A DNA stretch of 34,578 nucleotides, from the NCBI GenBank assembly GCA_016124735.1, contig WGMZ01000021.1, positions 1-34,578 of the forward strand, given 5' to 3'. The notes under the pieces were generated by a model. The model ran no database searches. It was not told the origin of the DNA and worked only from the letters and a program-made list of their open reading frames with translations. Positions 4,212 to 21,893 of this stretch are shown here, one piece after another; the stretch's first letter is position 1; each line of letters begins with the position of its first letter. Both the position numbers and the translations under genes were made by a program. The DNA is from Bacteroidota bacterium (GTDB lineage: Bacteria; Bacteroidota; Bacteroidia; UBA8524).

Positions 4212-4322
4212 ATTGTGGTGAGGGATGTCCGGAATTTATAAAAAGAAAAAAATTATGTAGGAATGAAACTTTTTACCCTCTTTGCGACACTATATCTCTG
4301 AACAAGCGGTAAAATACCCTAA

Positions 4323-4877
4323 TTGACGACTGAAGTAAAAGATGAATTCCTGGATCACTACCGATCCTCTCACCAGGCCTTTGAAAGATTTTGCAGGGCG
4401 CTGTGCCGGGATCGTGAGGCGGCGCGCGAGCTGATCCAGGAGTCTTTGCTTCAGGCTCTTGAAGGATACCACCGTTTGGAGAACAAAGAAAAATTTTCTT
4501 CCTGGATGATGGGCATTGCCATTCGGGTAAAGAAAAGCCAGGACCGGAAATTTAAAAACTGGTTTTTAAAGGAGGATTTACCGGAGCAAAGTGTTGATAT
4601 GCATACGGACGCGGATGCAGGATTGTCGATGCTTCGGAAATTATGCCACAAGCTGAATGTTTCGGAGAAGGAAGCCTTTCTTTTGTTCGAACTGTCGGAT
4701 TTTTCGCTGGAAGCCATTGCGGAGATTCAGGCAGCCAATGTCAATACCGTCAAAACGCGTCTTCGTCGGGCGCGCGAGAAATTGCAAAAATGGCTGGAAA
4801 AAGAATACCGTCAACAGGACCCGCTTGTCAATTGGTCCGCTTCAACCTTAAATATGGAGGCCAAAGAAAATGGATAG
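4323..4877 (+). CDS. ECF-type RNA polymerase sigma factor
   Basis: This 184-residue protein is of ECF (sigma-70 group 4) type. Region 2 covers about 8-80 (HYRSSHQAFERFCRALCRDR, REAARELIQESLLQALEGYH, then FSSWMMGIAIRVKKSQDRK). Region 4 covers about 103-160 (LNVSEKEAFLLFELSDFSLE, then VNTVKTRLRRAREKLQKWL). The start is TTG at 4323: a TAA stop lies directly before it in frame (4320-4322), and no earlier or nearby ATG is usable, so the weak start looks real. It overlaps the next gene by 8 bases, so the two are translated together. That gene encodes a membrane protein with a short cytoplasmic N-terminus, the expected position of an anti-sigma factor. Confidence 0.92.
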   Translation: MTTEVKDEFLDHYRSSHQAFERFCRALCRDREAARELIQESLLQALEGYHRLENKEKFSSWMMGIAIRVKKSQDRKFKNWFLKEDLPEQSVDMHTDADAGLSMLRKLCHKLNVSEKEAFLLFELSDFSLEAIAEIQAANVNTVKTRLRRAREKLQKWLEKEYRQQDPLVNWSASTLNMEAKENG

Positions 4878-7239
4878 CAAGAAAAAAACATCGCTTGATG
4901 ATTTGCTGAACCAGGTTCGGCAAGGAACTCCCGTTATGGAGGAGCAGGAGGCCATGGATTTTATTCGCAATACAGGGAGTTTACCGCTGCCTAAACGTGT
5001 AAAAATTAAACCCATTATTATGACAAGTATTGTTCTGACCATAGGTCTGTTTGCCGGTATCTGGATGATGCCTGCTCACGTCAAAGACGCAAAAGAAATG
5101 CGCGAAGTAACGGAAGGAAATGAAATAAGTGGAGTAACAGAAGATAGCGAATTAACAGAAGGAAATGAAGTAAACCGGTTAAATGAAGGAAACCTTACTT
5201 CTGGGAAACGCGAAACAAGTGATGGAGATAAGGAAAGCATATTTGAGCATACTTACGCTCCTGTGGACACACCTACAGTCGACTCGATCGGGCTAAGAAG
5301 AGAAACCTTTTCAATGCTGATTGATAAAGATGAGAAAGAAGTGGATGGAGATTCGGTACGTATAAAAATGGTCACTGAATCCAGAACTTCAGATTCTCCT
5401 TACCGAAATTTTACCTGCAACATGCCGGAAGGTGCTTTGAAGTTGGAAGCATCGGAGCTAAAACCTTTGGGTATCATCTTAAAGGGAAACAATCTGTTGT
5501 ATCAAATGGACCATACCGCAGAAGGGAAAATACAGATTTCCTTCAACGGAATTGGTAATGTAAATGATACCCGAATAATTGGTTCCAATACTTCGAAGCA
5601 GAACCAGTATCTTCTTCCTTTGGCGGTTCAAAGTTGCAAAGGAGAGTGGATTTATCTGCGTGGTTCAGAACCTACTTTGGATGAAATTTCAAAAGGATTG
5701 GCCATTCAAATTGATCTGGAAGACGGAAACCTTATTTTTTGGTACGAAAGAAGTGAAGCCTTATTGAAATTGCTTCCGCTTATCATTCAAAATGCACTTC
5801 TCGAAAACCCGAATTTATATTCTATTGCAGCGGAAGACCGAACAATTGGCGGAACGGGAAAGGCTGTCAATGACGCATTAGAAAGCCATGGCCCATTGGT
5901 GGAATTGCAGGTAGAACCAAGTGAAAACCTAATTGATTTGGGAGGCCGGATCAGCGAGTTAGGAATTCACAAAAATGAAAAAGGGATTGAACTAAAAAGA
6001 GGAGGGATTTCCTACCTGAGAACAAAAAATCAAATGCAAATAGAGTCGGAGCGCCATTTTTCTGAAGATGATTTTAGAAAAGTAAAAAATACCATGAATT
6101 TATTGCCCATGTACATTACAGATGCTCATTTCTATCAAAATCATCCCATACAATTGGGAACTGTATTGCCTGTATTGAATGAGGAAGGGAATAAATTGGA
6201 TCTACAGGGAAAGTTTCTCTTTGACAAATGGGCATTGGTTCCTGTGGCAGTTGGATACCCCGATATGGATACAGTTATATTTTGGTATGCTTACAACGAT
6301 GCTTTAAAAAATATTTTAACTCCAGCCGAAAGGAATAAGATTGAGAACAGAATTTCAATGGTAAATACTGATATGCGGTATGTTGGAGCTAAAGCGCAAT
6401 TTGTTAACGTGGATCTTCTGTTTAAGGACGAAAAGGCTAGTGCTGAGGCACTAAATGCCATTGAACCGGCGAAAGAGGTGTTGAATAAGTTAGGGGTTCG
6501 CGTTTTGGAGGATGGAAAAATAGAAGTGAGGTATCTCTATGATGAAGACCACAAGTTGATGGTAAATGAATTCTCCAAATCGCAGTCAACTATTATAGAA
6601 TACAAAAATGAGTTTCATTTGGATAGTGCAACGAAGACCGGCTTGATTATTTCTAAACGGAACCTGGTGAGCATCACGGATGATTTAGGTGGGCAACCCC
6701 GCCTCACCCGCTGGCAGGAAGGAGGAATCAAATTGAATGAATTGATTCCGGTGCGTGTGAGAAGCGGTCAAATCTATTCCCTGGATGATAAAATCAATCA
6801 GCGTTGGCGCCCGGATATCATTATATGGTACGAGGCGACGCCGGAAATTCTTTCCATTCTTGAGTCGGAAGGCGATTCAGCAGAGATAGGGGAGGTAACT
6901 TCAACCGAAGTTAAGCCAACCGAAGTAGCAAAACCCGAATGCCGTTACACAGAAATTTGCCGCAATAAGCCCGGTGTTTTCAACAGCCATTCCGTTTATC
7001 CTAACCCGGCTTCCGGCTACAGTAATTTTGCATGGACAGCCACAGAAACAGCCGCATACAGTATTACCTTGTATGCGCTAAACGGACAGAAAGTTCGAAG
7101 TTTTGAAAACCTGAATGCTGTGATTGGGAAGAATTCATACCAGATGGATATTTCCAGTCTGCCTCCCGGGGTGTATATGCTTATCCTTCGCTCAGCAAAA
7201 GGAGATGAAATTCATGAGCGTTTGGTAGTGAAGGAATAG
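4870..7239 (+). CDS. Large membrane-anchored putative anti-sigma protein with type IX secretion sorting domain
   Basis: This 789-residue protein overlaps the sigma gene. Residues 1-47 are charged and look cytoplasmic. Residues 48-67 form one membrane segment (MTSIVLTIGLFAGIWMM). Residues 75-125 are a polar linker with imperfect TEGNE/NEGN repeats. The large extracytoplasmic part has three similar motifs: LIFWYERSEALLKLL (288-302), VIFWYAYNDALKNIL (469-483) and IIIWYEATPEILSIL (650-664). Residues about 708-789 are a Por-type C-terminal sorting domain (YPNPASG, ALNGQKV, SLPPGVYMLIL, final VVKE). The position suggests an anti-sigma factor. A type IX signal on a protein with a 47-residue cytoplasmic lead is odd: either the hydrophobic segment is a long cleavable signal, or the C-terminus is handled by the outer-membrane machinery while the N-terminus stays anchored. 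No zinc-binding anti-sigma motif is seen. Confidence 0.8.
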   Translation: MDSKKKTSLDDLLNQVRQGTPVMEEQEAMDFIRNTGSLPLPKRVKIKPIIMTSIVLTIGLFAGIWMMPAHVKDAKEMREVTEGNEISGVTEDSELTEGNEVNRLNEGNLTSGKRETSDGDKESIFEHTYAPVDTPTVDSIGLRRETFSMLIDKDEKEVDGDSVRIKMVTESRTSDSPYRNFTCNMPEGALKLEASELKPLGIILKGNNLLYQMDHTAEGKIQISFNGIGNVNDTRIIGSNTSKQNQYLLPLAVQSCKGEWIYLRGSEPTLDEISKGLAIQIDLEDGNLIFWYERSEALLKLLPLIIQNALLENPNLYSIAAEDRTIGGTGKAVNDALESHGPLVELQVEPSENLIDLGGRISELGIHKNEKGIELKRGGISYLRTKNQMQIESERHFSEDDFRKVKNTMNLLPMYITDAHFYQNHPIQLGTVLPVLNEEGNKLDLQGKFLFDKWALVPVAVGYPDMDTVIFWYAYNDALKNILTPAERNKIENRISMVNTDMRYVGAKAQFVNVDLLFKDEKASAEALNAIEPAKEVLNKLGVRVLEDGKIEVRYLYDEDHKLMVNEFSKSQSTIIEYKNEFHLDSATKTGLIISKRNLVSITDDLGGQPRLTRWQEGGIKLNELIPVRVRSGQIYSLDDKINQRWRPDIIIWYEATPEILSILESEGDSAEIGEVTSTEVKPTEVAKPECRYTEICRNKPGVFNSHSVYPNPASGYSNFAWTATETAAYSITLYALNGQKVRSFENLNAVIGKNSYQMDISSLPPGVYMLILRSAKGDEIHERLVVKE

Positions 7240-18220: not shown

Positions 18221-19921
18221 TTAATTGTTTTCTTTCTTCAGAATCTTCAGGGTTTGCCACTGGACTCCATCTCCAACCCGAAGAAAATAGATTCCGGGGG
18301 CCAGCTCTTTCATTGGAATCGAGGCAGGGGATACGGATGAGATCTCTCCCAGCAGGTATTCTTTTCCTGTTGCATCGTACAGATGAATCAATGCAGGCTT
18401 AAAAAACTCCCATTTCAACCATATATCACCACTGGTTGGATTCGGATATGCGATGATCTTTGGAGATGGATCAATCCGTTGAACAGAATTTGGATTCCCC
18501 GGTACTTCCTGACACATGATGAAGGAATAGCTTGTACCCATCACTTCAATGGTGTCGTAATCATTGTGTTTTATCACATCTTCAATCTTCTTGATTGTAA
18601 CGGTATCTCCATTGCGAGCGGTATCTCCTGAGACTGTATAATTGATCAAGCCGTAAACTGAACTATCCGATCCATCCTGAATTTTCGTTTCAATATTGGC
18701 TTTCGAATCAATCATGTAATTGCGAAAGAGATTTAGGTTATTGCTGCTGAAATTGGACAGAATATTTCCATTACCGAACCAGGTATTAAAATGCATGGAT
18801 ATCGATTTAAAGCTGGTGCCGTTCTCCGGTGTAAATTGTTTTGTTTGATTGACCACCTTTAAAGTTAGTGGATTGCTGATGAAAACATTCCTTTGGATTT
18901 CAAATGTCTGATTCAGTCCATTGCTTATTTCGGCGGGGAAGTGCACACATAAATTATTTGCGATGAATAGATTGCATTCCATGAGTCCGAAACGGTTTCC
19001 TTCCTCTATGAGAATTGCCGTGCCATTGGTTTCAAATGAATTCTCGCTTATGGTGCAAAGTGTCTGAGAAAGGGTTCTGTTCTCATTGCGGCCACGCAAT
19101 CGCAGGCCAATGCTATTTTGTTTTACAGATGTATTCTGAATGGACAAGCTGTGTCCATAAAACCCAATTCCATTATTAAGCAAGCTGGAAGAATCGATGC
19201 GCACATATGCGGCATCCCAAATGGCTGTATCATTATTTTGGATCACGCAAGAATAGAAATGCCCACTCACTTCTTTCATAGCGAGATGATTGTTTTCAAT
19301 GGTGGAATAATTGGCATTGATTATACCCGGTGAAAAATTGGAATCAACACCTGTTAAGCTTGCCGAAATACCAACTCTGTTATTGGCAATAAGGGATAAG
19401 GTCAACATAATTGAAGCTCCTCTGATTCCCGTTTTTATTCCGACAATATTATTCTCGATGGTTGAATTGTAAAATGTAATATCCAGAGTAGTTGGTGAAA
19501 AAGGTAGTGGAATTTGACTCGTATTGAGGCCGGTTTCAGCATCATTCAAAATGCCATAGTTGAAATGAATTCTTGCAGATTGACTTTCCATAAAAACCCC
19601 TTTCCAAAGGACATGTTTCCCATTCCCAATTTCCTTTCCTTTCAGGACTACCGGTAAGTTCTGAGAGCCATTTATTTCTAAAATTCCACCGACATAGATA
19701 CCATAGGGGCCTTCAAAAAATATATTTGTTCCCTCTTCAATCTCTAAAGAATATTCTATCGGGACCGTTACATTTCCCTGAATCCAATAGGGACCATTTG
19801 CTTTGGTCCAAATCGTTGCTGAATCAGACAAAGTAATTTCCTGAATAATTGTATCGGCTTTGACCGCTGAAAATGTACCCTGGAGAAATAGTGCCAAAGC
19901 AAAGATTAGTTTCAATTTCAT
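18221..19921 (-). CDS. Secreted right-handed beta-helix protein with type IX sorting domain
   Basis: The best start is ATG 19921-19919, which overlaps the upstream stop as ATGA and has AAGGAGGAG just before it; that gives 566 residues. A longer frame begins at 19948 but would precede the signal peptide MKLKLIFALALFLQGTFSAV. The mature part has repeated short strands with NNxxG, NNTAI and IENN turns over about residues 60-400 (STIENNIVGIKTG, SLIANNRVGIS, SVKQNSIGLRLRG, SFETNGTAILIEEG), the pattern of a parallel beta-helix of the pectate-lyase type without a clear active site. The last 75 residues are a Por-type sorting domain (AYPNPTSGDIWLKW, LYDATGKE, LAPGIYFLRVG). It is therefore probably exported across the outer membrane and surface-attached. 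Third gene of the sigma operon. Confidence 0.87.
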   Translation of the reverse strand: MKLKLIFALALFLQGTFSAVKADTIIQEITLSDSATIWTKANGPYWIQGNVTVPIEYSLEIEEGTNIFFEGPYGIYVGGILEINGSQNLPVVLKGKEIGNGKHVLWKGVFMESQSARIHFNYGILNDAETGLNTSQIPLPFSPTTLDITFYNSTIENNIVGIKTGIRGASIMLTLSLIANNRVGISASLTGVDSNFSPGIINANYSTIENNHLAMKEVSGHFYSCVIQNNDTAIWDAAYVRIDSSSLLNNGIGFYGHSLSIQNTSVKQNSIGLRLRGRNENRTLSQTLCTISENSFETNGTAILIEEGNRFGLMECNLFIANNLCVHFPAEISNGLNQTFEIQRNVFISNPLTLKVVNQTKQFTPENGTSFKSISMHFNTWFGNGNILSNFSSNNLNLFRNYMIDSKANIETKIQDGSDSSVYGLINYTVSGDTARNGDTVTIKKIEDVIKHNDYDTIEVMGTSYSFIMCQEVPGNPNSVQRIDPSPKIIAYPNPTSGDIWLKWEFFKPALIHLYDATGKEYLLGEISSVSPASIPMKELAPGIYFLRVGDGVQWQTLKILKKENN

Positions 19922-21321
19922 TTCGCTCCTCCTTTCTTTTGCAAACAAAACATCATTCCCAAACGGAAGCTGAGGTATTGGTGTCTTTCACTAAATAATG
20001 CACCCGAATAAATTTTACCAGGCTGGTACTGATAACGTGTCTGAATATAGATGGACGACCGATTATTCAGCAAATAAGATGCGCCAAAGCCAAACTTGAG
20101 CTGGTAATTCAACCTGCGGATGCTTTGATTCGTTTCATGGAAATAAGTTTCCCGGCTTTTGAACTGAACATTCGAGTTAAGGTAGTTCAGGGAAGTGCCA
20201 AACATCCAGCTCCATTCAAACCCTTGTCCGAGGCTTTGCACTTTTCCAATCTCTAGCGGAATACTGAGCCAACTGTATCGAAGAGAATAGTTTCCCCCTT
20301 TTTGGTCGTAGTTGATCATGGTCCCGGTATTTAAATTGCGGTCAACCCATTCGAGGGTGTCAATTTTGCCATAATACGAATAAGAACCACTTAGTGTATA
20401 GGCTGAATATGCAAAGCCCGTGCGAATGAGCCAATTTTTATTGCTGCGGTATTGATATCCAAGTTGAAGAATTCCACCCATTGCGGACCGATTGTTTTTT
20501 TCAAAATTAATATCTCCCCGTATCGCGAAATCTCTCACCGATGGAATCAAGGTGCCTGCTTCGAAATAAACATATTGATGACAGGACTTAAAAATGCTGG
20601 AATCTTTCTTAGGCGCCTTGATTTTTGGTATTTCGGGAGAATTCGGAGACCAGGAAGCGAGATGGATGGGAATTGTCGGAAACTCAACCGCTTCAATAGT
20701 CCGATTGTTTTGGTTTTCTAAGGGCTCAGAACCTTCTGGAGCTGGCCCGGATTCATCATTCAGATTTTTTTGGCTTCCATTTGGATTGGTTTTTTTATTC
20801 ACGGCATCAGAACTCCCGGAGAAAGGAGCAGGAGAGGGGAAGAGTAATTCCTCTCCTGTTCTTGAATTGCCCGGTGTTGGTTTCTGGGTTTGAGATAAAC
20901 CGGAAGCCTGATTATTTACTTTATCGGTAGGGAATGGATTGGAAGGATTGGAAGGATTGGAAGGATTGGATGGGTTCCCATCGATTTCAATATTTTTTTC
21001 ATCCGCTCCAGATGTAGCAGACTCCTGAACATTCGGCACCTGAATTTCCGATTGTCCATTGTGAGAGGATACAGGATTCGTTGTTTCAGACCTTGAACTT
21101 ACTTCTTGTCGGGCACCTTCGTGATCCATCAGAGAGAACACAATACAAATAGTCGCAATAAGGGCAACTGAAGCCACCCCAAATAAGGACCAGAACCTCC
21201 AATTTGGTTTTTTCAGGCCCAACTGTATCTGATTCCATACGGAATCATCCGGTTCGGCTTTCAGGTCTTTTAAGCCATCCCGGAACAGTTTTTCCAATTC
21301 ATCTAACTCTCTCTCCTTCAT
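19918..21321 (-). CDS. Putative anti-sigma protein: inner-membrane anchor fused to outer-membrane beta-barrel domain
   Basis: This 467-residue protein has a charged cytoplasmic N-terminus (1-42; MKERELDELEKLFRDGLKDL), one membrane segment (about 44-64; FWSLFGVASVALIATICIVF), a long low-complexity linker with NPS repeats (about 114-130) and Pro/Asn/Gly-rich sequence to about 235, and a C-terminal beta-rich domain of the PorT-like outer-membrane type (from about 245; YVYFEAGTLIPSVRDFAIRG ... YLSFRLGMMF). It overlaps the sigma gene by 4 bases (ATGA) and the next gene by 4 bases, so all three are tightly coupled. Sigma-anchor-barrel proteins are known in Bacteroidota but poorly studied. A protein bridging both membranes would be well placed to pass an outer-membrane signal to its sigma factor; this is inference. 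Confidence 0.82.
   Translation of the reverse strand: MKERELDELEKLFRDGLKDLKAEPDDSVWNQIQLGLKKPNWRFWSLFGVASVALIATICIVFSLMDHEGARQEVSSRSETTNPVSSHNGQSEIQVPNVQESATSGADEKNIEIDGNPSNPSNPSNPSNPFPTDKVNNQASGLSQTQKPTPGNSRTGEELLFPSPAPFSGSSDAVNKKTNPNGSQKNLNDESGPAPEGSEPLENQNNRTIEAVEFPTIPIHLASWSPNSPEIPKIKAPKKDSSIFKSCHQYVYFEAGTLIPSVRDFAIRGDINFEKNNRSAMGGILQLGYQYRSNKNWLIRTGFAYSAYTLSGSYSYYGKIDTLEWVDRNLNTGTMINYDQKGGNYSLRYSWLSIPLEIGKVQSLGQGFEWSWMFGTSLNYLNSNVQFKSRETYFHETNQSIRRLNYQLKFGFGASYLLNNRSSIYIQTRYQYQPGKIYSGALFSERHQYLSFRLGMMFCLQKKGGAK
20936..20971. repeat. Nine-base tandem repeat encoding Asn-Pro-Ser
   Basis: GGATTGGAA is repeated four times (20936-20944, 20945-20953, 20954-20962, and 20963-20971 with one change). 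On the coding strand it gives Ser-Asn-Pro units in the linker of the anchor-barrel protein. The unit is three codons, so copy-number change would alter linker length without breaking the frame. Confidence 0.85.
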
Positions 21322-21893
21322 TTTGTTATATCCTTTTGTTCCCTATGGGCCAGCCAATCGGCCAGCCGTTTTTTTGCTTTCATTAGCTGTGTTTTTGATG
21401 TGCTGGCACTGATATCAAGCTGTTCTGCAATTTCGTCGTGTGTATATCCTTCAATAACATATAAGTTGAAAACAGATCGGTACCCCGCGGGAAGTTTTTG
21501 TACCAATTGGAGCAAATCTTTCTCCTGTAGCTGCAAGTCGGCAGGTAGTCTGTAATCTTCCCAATCCGTATGTTCTTCTGGTAACTCGTTTCTTCGGTAC
21601 TCCCATTTTCTGTTAAAGCTAATCGCGGTATTTATTACTATCCGAGTCATCCAACCTTCAAAAGAACCGCTCCCCGAATACGCATTGCACTTGTTCAAAA
21701 TACTGATGAATGCCTCTTGAAGGATGTCTTGGGCGTGTTCGCGAGAGCCAGCATAGCGCAGGGCAATCCCCAGCAGCTTGGATTTATAGCGCTGGTATAG
21801 CTCAGACTGTGCTGATTTCTTTCCTTTTTTGCAGGCGTCTATCAGTTCTTTCGGCGTATCCAATTGGGCAGGTTCTGATTCTATGTCGTTCAA
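21318..21893 (-). CDS. ECF-type RNA polymerase sigma factor
   Basis: This 191-residue protein shows region 2 at about 20-95 (KSAQSELYQRYKSKLLGIAL, AQDILQEAFISILNKC, then GSFEGWMTRIVINTAISFNR) and region 4 at about 125-180 (LPAGYRSVFNLYVIEGYTHD, then EIAEQLDISASTSKTQLMKA). The start is TTG at 21893-21891: a TAA lies four codons upstream in frame and there is no ATG before the middle of region 2. First gene of a three-gene operon with 4-base overlaps. Similar sigma factors act with the PorXY system in type IX-secreting bacteria; that this one controls surface secretion is an inference from the cargo gene in its operon. Confidence 0.93.
   Translation of the reverse strand: MNDIESEPAQLDTPKELIDACKKGKKSAQSELYQRYKSKLLGIALRYAGSREHAQDILQEAFISILNKCNAYSGSGSFEGWMTRIVINTAISFNRKWEYRRNELPEEHTDWEDYRLPADLQLQEKDLLQLVQKLPAGYRSVFNLYVIEGYTHDEIAEQLDISASTSKTQLMKAKKRLADWLAHREQKDITK

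Follow-up and report, generated by a model that had tools for sequence, protein, structure and literature searches.

An ECF sigma factor paired with a putative anti-sigma factor that ends in a type IX secretion sorting domain: a candidate trans-envelope regulator in a Bacteroidota bacterium

The window analysed here is a stretch of 34,578 nucleotides from a Bacteroidota bacterium (lineage Bacteroidia; UBA8524), corresponding to positions 1 to 34,578 of contig WGMZ01000021.1 in assembly GCA_016124735.1. At positions 4,323 to 7,239 it contains an ECF sigma factor gene and a partner gene, whose product carries a C-terminal sorting domain (CTD) of the type IX secretion system (T9SS). The features of the locus are as follows.

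4323..4877, + strand: ECF sigma factor gene; 184 aa, TTG start, aligning with its relatives end to end
4870..7239, + strand: putative anti-sigma factor with T9SS sorting domain; 789 aa, ATG start
4870..5013, + strand: residues 1-48, putative sigma-binding (anti-sigma) domain; HMM match, model pLDDT about 70
5014..5070, + strand: residues 49-67, predicted single transmembrane signal anchor, from hydrophobicity; helix 49-63 in the model
5071..5433, + strand: residues 68-188, predicted disordered tether of about 120 residues; pLDDT mostly below 30
5434..5805, + strand: residues 189-312, sensor unit 1, starting LKLEASELKPLGI; degenerate WYEPT motif at 284-311
6064..6387, + strand: residues 399-506, sensor unit 2 (limits approximate, from the model); degenerate WYEPT motif at 456-495
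6496..6885, + strand: residues 543-672, sensor unit 3 (limits approximate); conserved WYEPT module at 622-664
6940..6960, + strand: Cys691-x5-Cys697, just N-terminal to the CTD; a Cys pair lies there in many, not all, family members
6979..7236, + strand: residues 704-789, T9SS type A C-terminal sorting domain; PF18962, TIGR04183, fold match to RemZ/RemA CTDs

The product of the first gene has the domain content of an ECF sigma factor, with sigma region 2 and region 4 domains only (Sigma70_r2, 33.9 bits; Sigma70_r4_2, 41 bits; both above the Pfam cut-off). The TTG seems to be its start codon; an in-frame stop lies immediately 5' of it (window 4320-4325), and the next Met is found deep in region 2. 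The gene overlaps its partner by eight bases, ATGGATAG. Overlaps of -4 or -8 and the same gene order were found to recur among related pairs, and the placement expected of an anti-sigma gene, directly downstream of and coupled to its sigma gene, is thereby conserved in relatives. The pair, with its overlap, single membrane segment and Por-type CTD, is as the earlier note had described it. The next gene in the window, MiaE, lies on the opposite strand, and therefore no operon partner is seen for the pair. Elsewhere in the window, a gene for a BlaI-like repressor is followed by one for an M56 peptidase with a TonB C-terminal domain (253-1790, + strand).

Direct searches with the partner protein matched only CTDs. 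For residues 1-687 no convincing relative was found in 295 genomes of the class or in the genome contigs searched; the class genomes yielded two short weak matches, in L094 and L095, and no sigma pair adjoins either of them. Reading the partner as an orphan protein was nevertheless dropped, since its relatives surfaced, though only via the sigma factor. Relatives of the latter (A1), with 26-32% identity, are directly followed by a gene whose product has an N-terminal part of about 45 residues, a single transmembrane segment and a variable periplasmic part. The A1 collection comprised 80 named loci and 60 from genomes of the phylum. Among full-length partners of at least 200 aa, with the CTD called by a purpose-built HMM, 48/123 end in a CTD, compared with 30/431 control ORFs of the same loci (Fisher p 2e-16, a nominal value as the rows are related); the ORF rule missed or mis-framed a few partners (L252, L263 and L258). 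Pfam itself found PF18962 in 48 of 49 members scanned, including the window protein. The sigma-anchor-CTD order, for which the earlier note had suggested looking, is therefore recurrent in this subfamily, with Rufibacter (loci L141 and L153) an example of a cultured relative that has such a pair, and the pairing of a sigma factor with an anti-sigma factor ending in a T9SS CTD is strongly supported by homologues that share both order and overlap.

With 106 CTD matches and 23 ECF sigma genes in the own genome, one sigma-CTD neighbourhood could arise there by chance, and this genome by itself could not decide the matter. A chance neighbour was made unlikely by the partner counts above and by the search that started from the module described below. 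On the sigma tree the CTD label requires at least 15 changes, compared with about 39 in shuffles. Starred branches force only two of these, and the branch of the window sigma factor is long, so it is unsure how often the CTD arose. The 75 non-CTD partners include 30 with an FGE-sulfatase domain and seven with DUF2807. Many of the FGE-sulfatase-like partners of this sigma subfamily are from Flavobacteriales, and such domains follow the membrane segment, also at L097 (1027-2532) and L098 (3828-5591). A possible replacement of the CTD by an outer membrane barrel was considered for five sister partners (L219, L224, L225, L233 and L250); their C-termini resemble outer membrane beta-signals by eye, but Pfam found no barrel family in them.

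The N-terminus of the window protein, with two predicted helices (residues 9-18 and 25-34), resembles in sequence that of sister partners without a sorting domain. An HMM built from the N-termini of these sisters, which are themselves putative anti-sigma factors, matches residues 1-49 with 9.5 bits, a modest score compared with a best of 8.1 bits in 960 shuffles. Partners of other ECF sigma factors in the own genome reached at most 3.9 bits. The sole control that scored above the window protein was an anti-sigma-like neighbour in L125, a partner that was found only as this control match.

Hydrophobicity over 19 residues peaks in the stretch from residue 49 onwards; the net charge is +4 on its N-terminal side and 0 on its C-terminal side, and its end lacks a nearby AxA. 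Across 49 CTD proteins the median start of the hydrophobic segment is residue 54, and its median number of uncharged residues is 21; the mean net charge is +2.2 before it and -0.4 after it, so the positive-inside rule is obeyed on average, and an AxA site lies near its end in only 9/49. The segment thus resembles a signal anchor more than it does a normal signal peptide, in agreement with the earlier note, which had treated it as a membrane anchor. T9SS effectors are stated in the literature to carry, all of them, a Sec signal peptide (PMC12618676), and the anchor is for that reason a real departure. The predicted tether that follows is 122 residues long in the window protein, with a median of 78 in the 31 proteins measured; at 0.34 nm per residue, these lengths correspond arithmetically to contours of about 41 nm and 27 nm. 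Some homologues have short tethers of 20-55 residues.

At the other end of the protein, the only Pfam family found is Por_Secre_tail (PF18962), over residues 709-787 (47 bits, cut-off 27, E 3e-12). TIGR04183 also matches (39.3 bits, cut-off 23), which identifies a type A sorting domain. Residues 704-787 are predicted to fold as a seven-strand beta sandwich (pLDDT mostly 74-86). In a fold search this CTD matched 8gl8_D and 8gl6_D (TM-scores by target length 0.77 and 0.72), both of which are T9SS CTDs solved bound within the SprA translocon. The CTDs of 49 divergent proteins show little or no variation in the YPNP motif and the core Gly/Tyr. SprA, the T9SS component searched for, is encoded in the own genome (2471.7 bits).

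What lies between the tether and the CTD? Upstream of the CTD, matches between the window protein and its relatives extend further, into an un-named module with the consensus IIWYEPTxEFLxxLP, which is N-terminal to the CTD in 48/48 CTD partners; N-terminus, anchor, module and CTD are conserved family-wide. With a model trained on 36 of these 48 partners, the other 12 and the window protein having been left out, three WYEPT copies were found in the window protein: residues 622-664 score 23.3 bits (E 6.5e-7), and the weaker copies at 284-311 and 456-495 score 10 bits each, compared with a best of 1.7 in 200 shuffles. The module is absent from non-CTD partners save L122, in which the CTD is cut by a contig end, and L111, which has a weak CTD. 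No fold is claimed for it, because the AF2 models are weak in this region and the fold searches mainly covered the CTD.

A module-only search of 395 genomes, with an alignment that included the window protein's own copy, gave 44 matches, 41 of them at most 3.5 kb downstream of an A1-family sigma gene on the same strand; CTD homologues are hence linked to sigma genes, a linkage on which the earlier note had made its proposal depend. One genome (G640) has six module matches. The three matches without an A1-family sigma gene are one protein without a CTD and two short module-CTD proteins. The latter two (L274 1750-2625 and L276 1988-2857) have signal-peptide-like N-termini and are each followed by a VIT-domain gene. 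With such ordinary N-termini, the module-CTD part therefore also exists as apparent T9SS cargo, and the module looks, from its sequence distribution, like part of a surface system that also occurs as plain cargo. A VIT gene follows 10/48 sigma-linked CTD partners and a DUF1573 gene 4/48, compared with 0/74 other partners. The neighbour genes seen at CTD pairs are of VIT, VWA, DUF1573, beta-propeller and trypsin-like types, not T9SS components.

On balance, and guardedly, the sequence evidence leans towards a trans-envelope anti-sigma factor, the sensor end of which would be delivered by T9SS. The two genes would encode a cognate pair, an ECF sigma factor and an anti-sigma factor translationally coupled to it. 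In the anti-sigma protein, residues 1-48 would keep the sigma factor bound at the inner membrane, residues 49-67 would anchor the protein with its N-terminus inside and its C-terminus outside, and the disordered tether of about 120 residues would cross the periplasm. T9SS (PorV, SprA) would then deliver the repeated WYEPT module, together with the type A CTD, to the cell surface or outer membrane, with export through SprA presumably occurring while the protein is still anchored. A surface signal, which may be ligand binding, CTD cleavage by PorU or a pull on the tether, would alter or break the anti-sigma protein and so free the sigma factor. More tentatively, and with some doubt, a widespread anti-sigma family may span both membranes in this way, its C-terminus threaded through the type IX translocon and its inner-membrane anchor kept, so that T9SS export would build one unbroken protein wire linking the surface with RNA polymerase. 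The rule that T9SS effectors carry a Sec signal peptide, the modest N-terminal score, the short tethers of some homologues and the long branch of the window sigma factor all count against the trans-envelope model.

The earlier note had suggested that the C-terminus could report on the state of the type IX machinery. Its core, a sigma factor and an anti-sigma factor with a CTD, was retained, and this interpretation of the C-terminus is less favoured and considered unlikely. The CTD would compete for or occupy T9SS, and an export block or halted CTD cleavage would alter the state of the anti-sigma factor, so that the sigma factor induces envelope or secretion genes. The CTD does look like a functional type A signal, and there is a precedent in PorA, a CTD protein that acts upstream of PorXY-SigP in Porphyromonas gingivalis (PMC7712824). 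However, several paralogues per genome would be redundant for this purpose (as with the six module matches in G640), the conserved sensor module is left unexplained, and the downstream genes, where present, are of the VIT/VWA, DUF1573, beta-propeller or trypsin-like types listed above. Delivery of a sensor to the surface by T9SS explains more than reporting on T9SS itself.

Two further explanations concern the fate of the sensor part. The anti-sigma factor of the type III flagellar system, FlgM, is itself exported, and the logic of export-coupled anti-sigma factors is established. By analogy, the partner might act as an anti-sigma factor until cut by signal peptidase or a site-1-like protease, whereupon the freed module and CTD would leave as ordinary T9SS cargo and export would consume the anti-sigma factor. 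The sigma-less homologues that appear to be plain cargo would suit such a regulated release, but no conserved type I signal peptidase site follows the anchor, given the scarcity of AxA near its end (9/49), and this course of events is judged improbable. Less credible still is an ordinary anti-sigma factor with a purely periplasmic sensor, in which the CTD would persist as a relic or as an Ig-like domain that is not used. Within the same subfamily, sister partners do manage without a CTD, with FGE-sulfatase (30/75) or DUF2807 (7/75) instead, whereas the near-invariance of the YPNP motif and core Gly/Tyr in 49 divergent proteins, and the joint retention of CTD and WYEPT module, argue against disuse.

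The layout recurs in many related bacteria and could carry a surface signal straight to genes. If the trans-envelope reading is true, T9SS would serve both for export and for the assembly of signalling proteins that span the envelope, and every such sigma factor would have its sensor on the cell surface. It would also offer a test of whether SprA handles a substrate with its inner-membrane anchor still in place, and regulons can be predicted from it for a sigma class that is present in several copies in some Bacteroidota-related bacteria. The un-named WYEPT module gains a starting point for study. In the openly accessible papers searched, no description of CTD-bearing anti-sigma factors was found, nor any earlier description of an ECF sigma factor combined with one.

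How does this protein compare with known systems? Dma (dual membrane-spanning anti-sigma) proteins have the same plan and end in a C-terminal outer membrane beta-barrel (PMC13088901). Like them, the window protein adjoins an ECF sigma gene and has an N-terminal putative anti-sigma domain, one transmembrane helix, a long disordered tether and a C-terminal part predicted to reach the outer membrane, and it may work like Dma. However, it ends in the WYEPT module and an Ig-like type A T9SS CTD instead of a barrel and is therefore not a Dma member; its N-terminus is also a closer match to the partners of another ECF subfamily than to the own genome's Dma-like partners. A second locus in the window (18221-21893, - strand) has, in a row, an ECF sigma gene (21318-21893), a Dma-resembling partner with a transmembrane segment, tether and barrel-like C-terminus (19918-21321) and a T9SS CTD protein (18221-19948). 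The same three kinds of gene are found at L101 2983-6819 (contig C44 of the own genome), where the gene for the CTD protein lies upstream of that for the sigma factor, and coordinates on contigs C4, C5 and C12 suggest similar neighbours there.

PorA shares with the present pair a T9SS CTD protein tied to an ECF sigma factor, but it is a separate, signal-peptide-bearing surface protein that acts via a two-component system (PMC7712824), whereas here the CTD is on the putative anti-sigma factor itself. The type A cargo RemA, RemZ and gingipains (TIGR04183/PF18962) have a CTD of the same family and fold; unlike them, the window protein bears a 48-residue cytoplasmic-type N-terminus and a signal anchor in place of the cleavable N-terminal signal peptide. 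The RsgI-type anti-sigma factors of the Gram-positive clostridia are membrane-anchored and have a surface sensor with carbohydrate-binding modules. The window protein, as a putative membrane-anchored anti-sigma factor with a surface sensor, would resemble them, with the outer membrane step as the difference.
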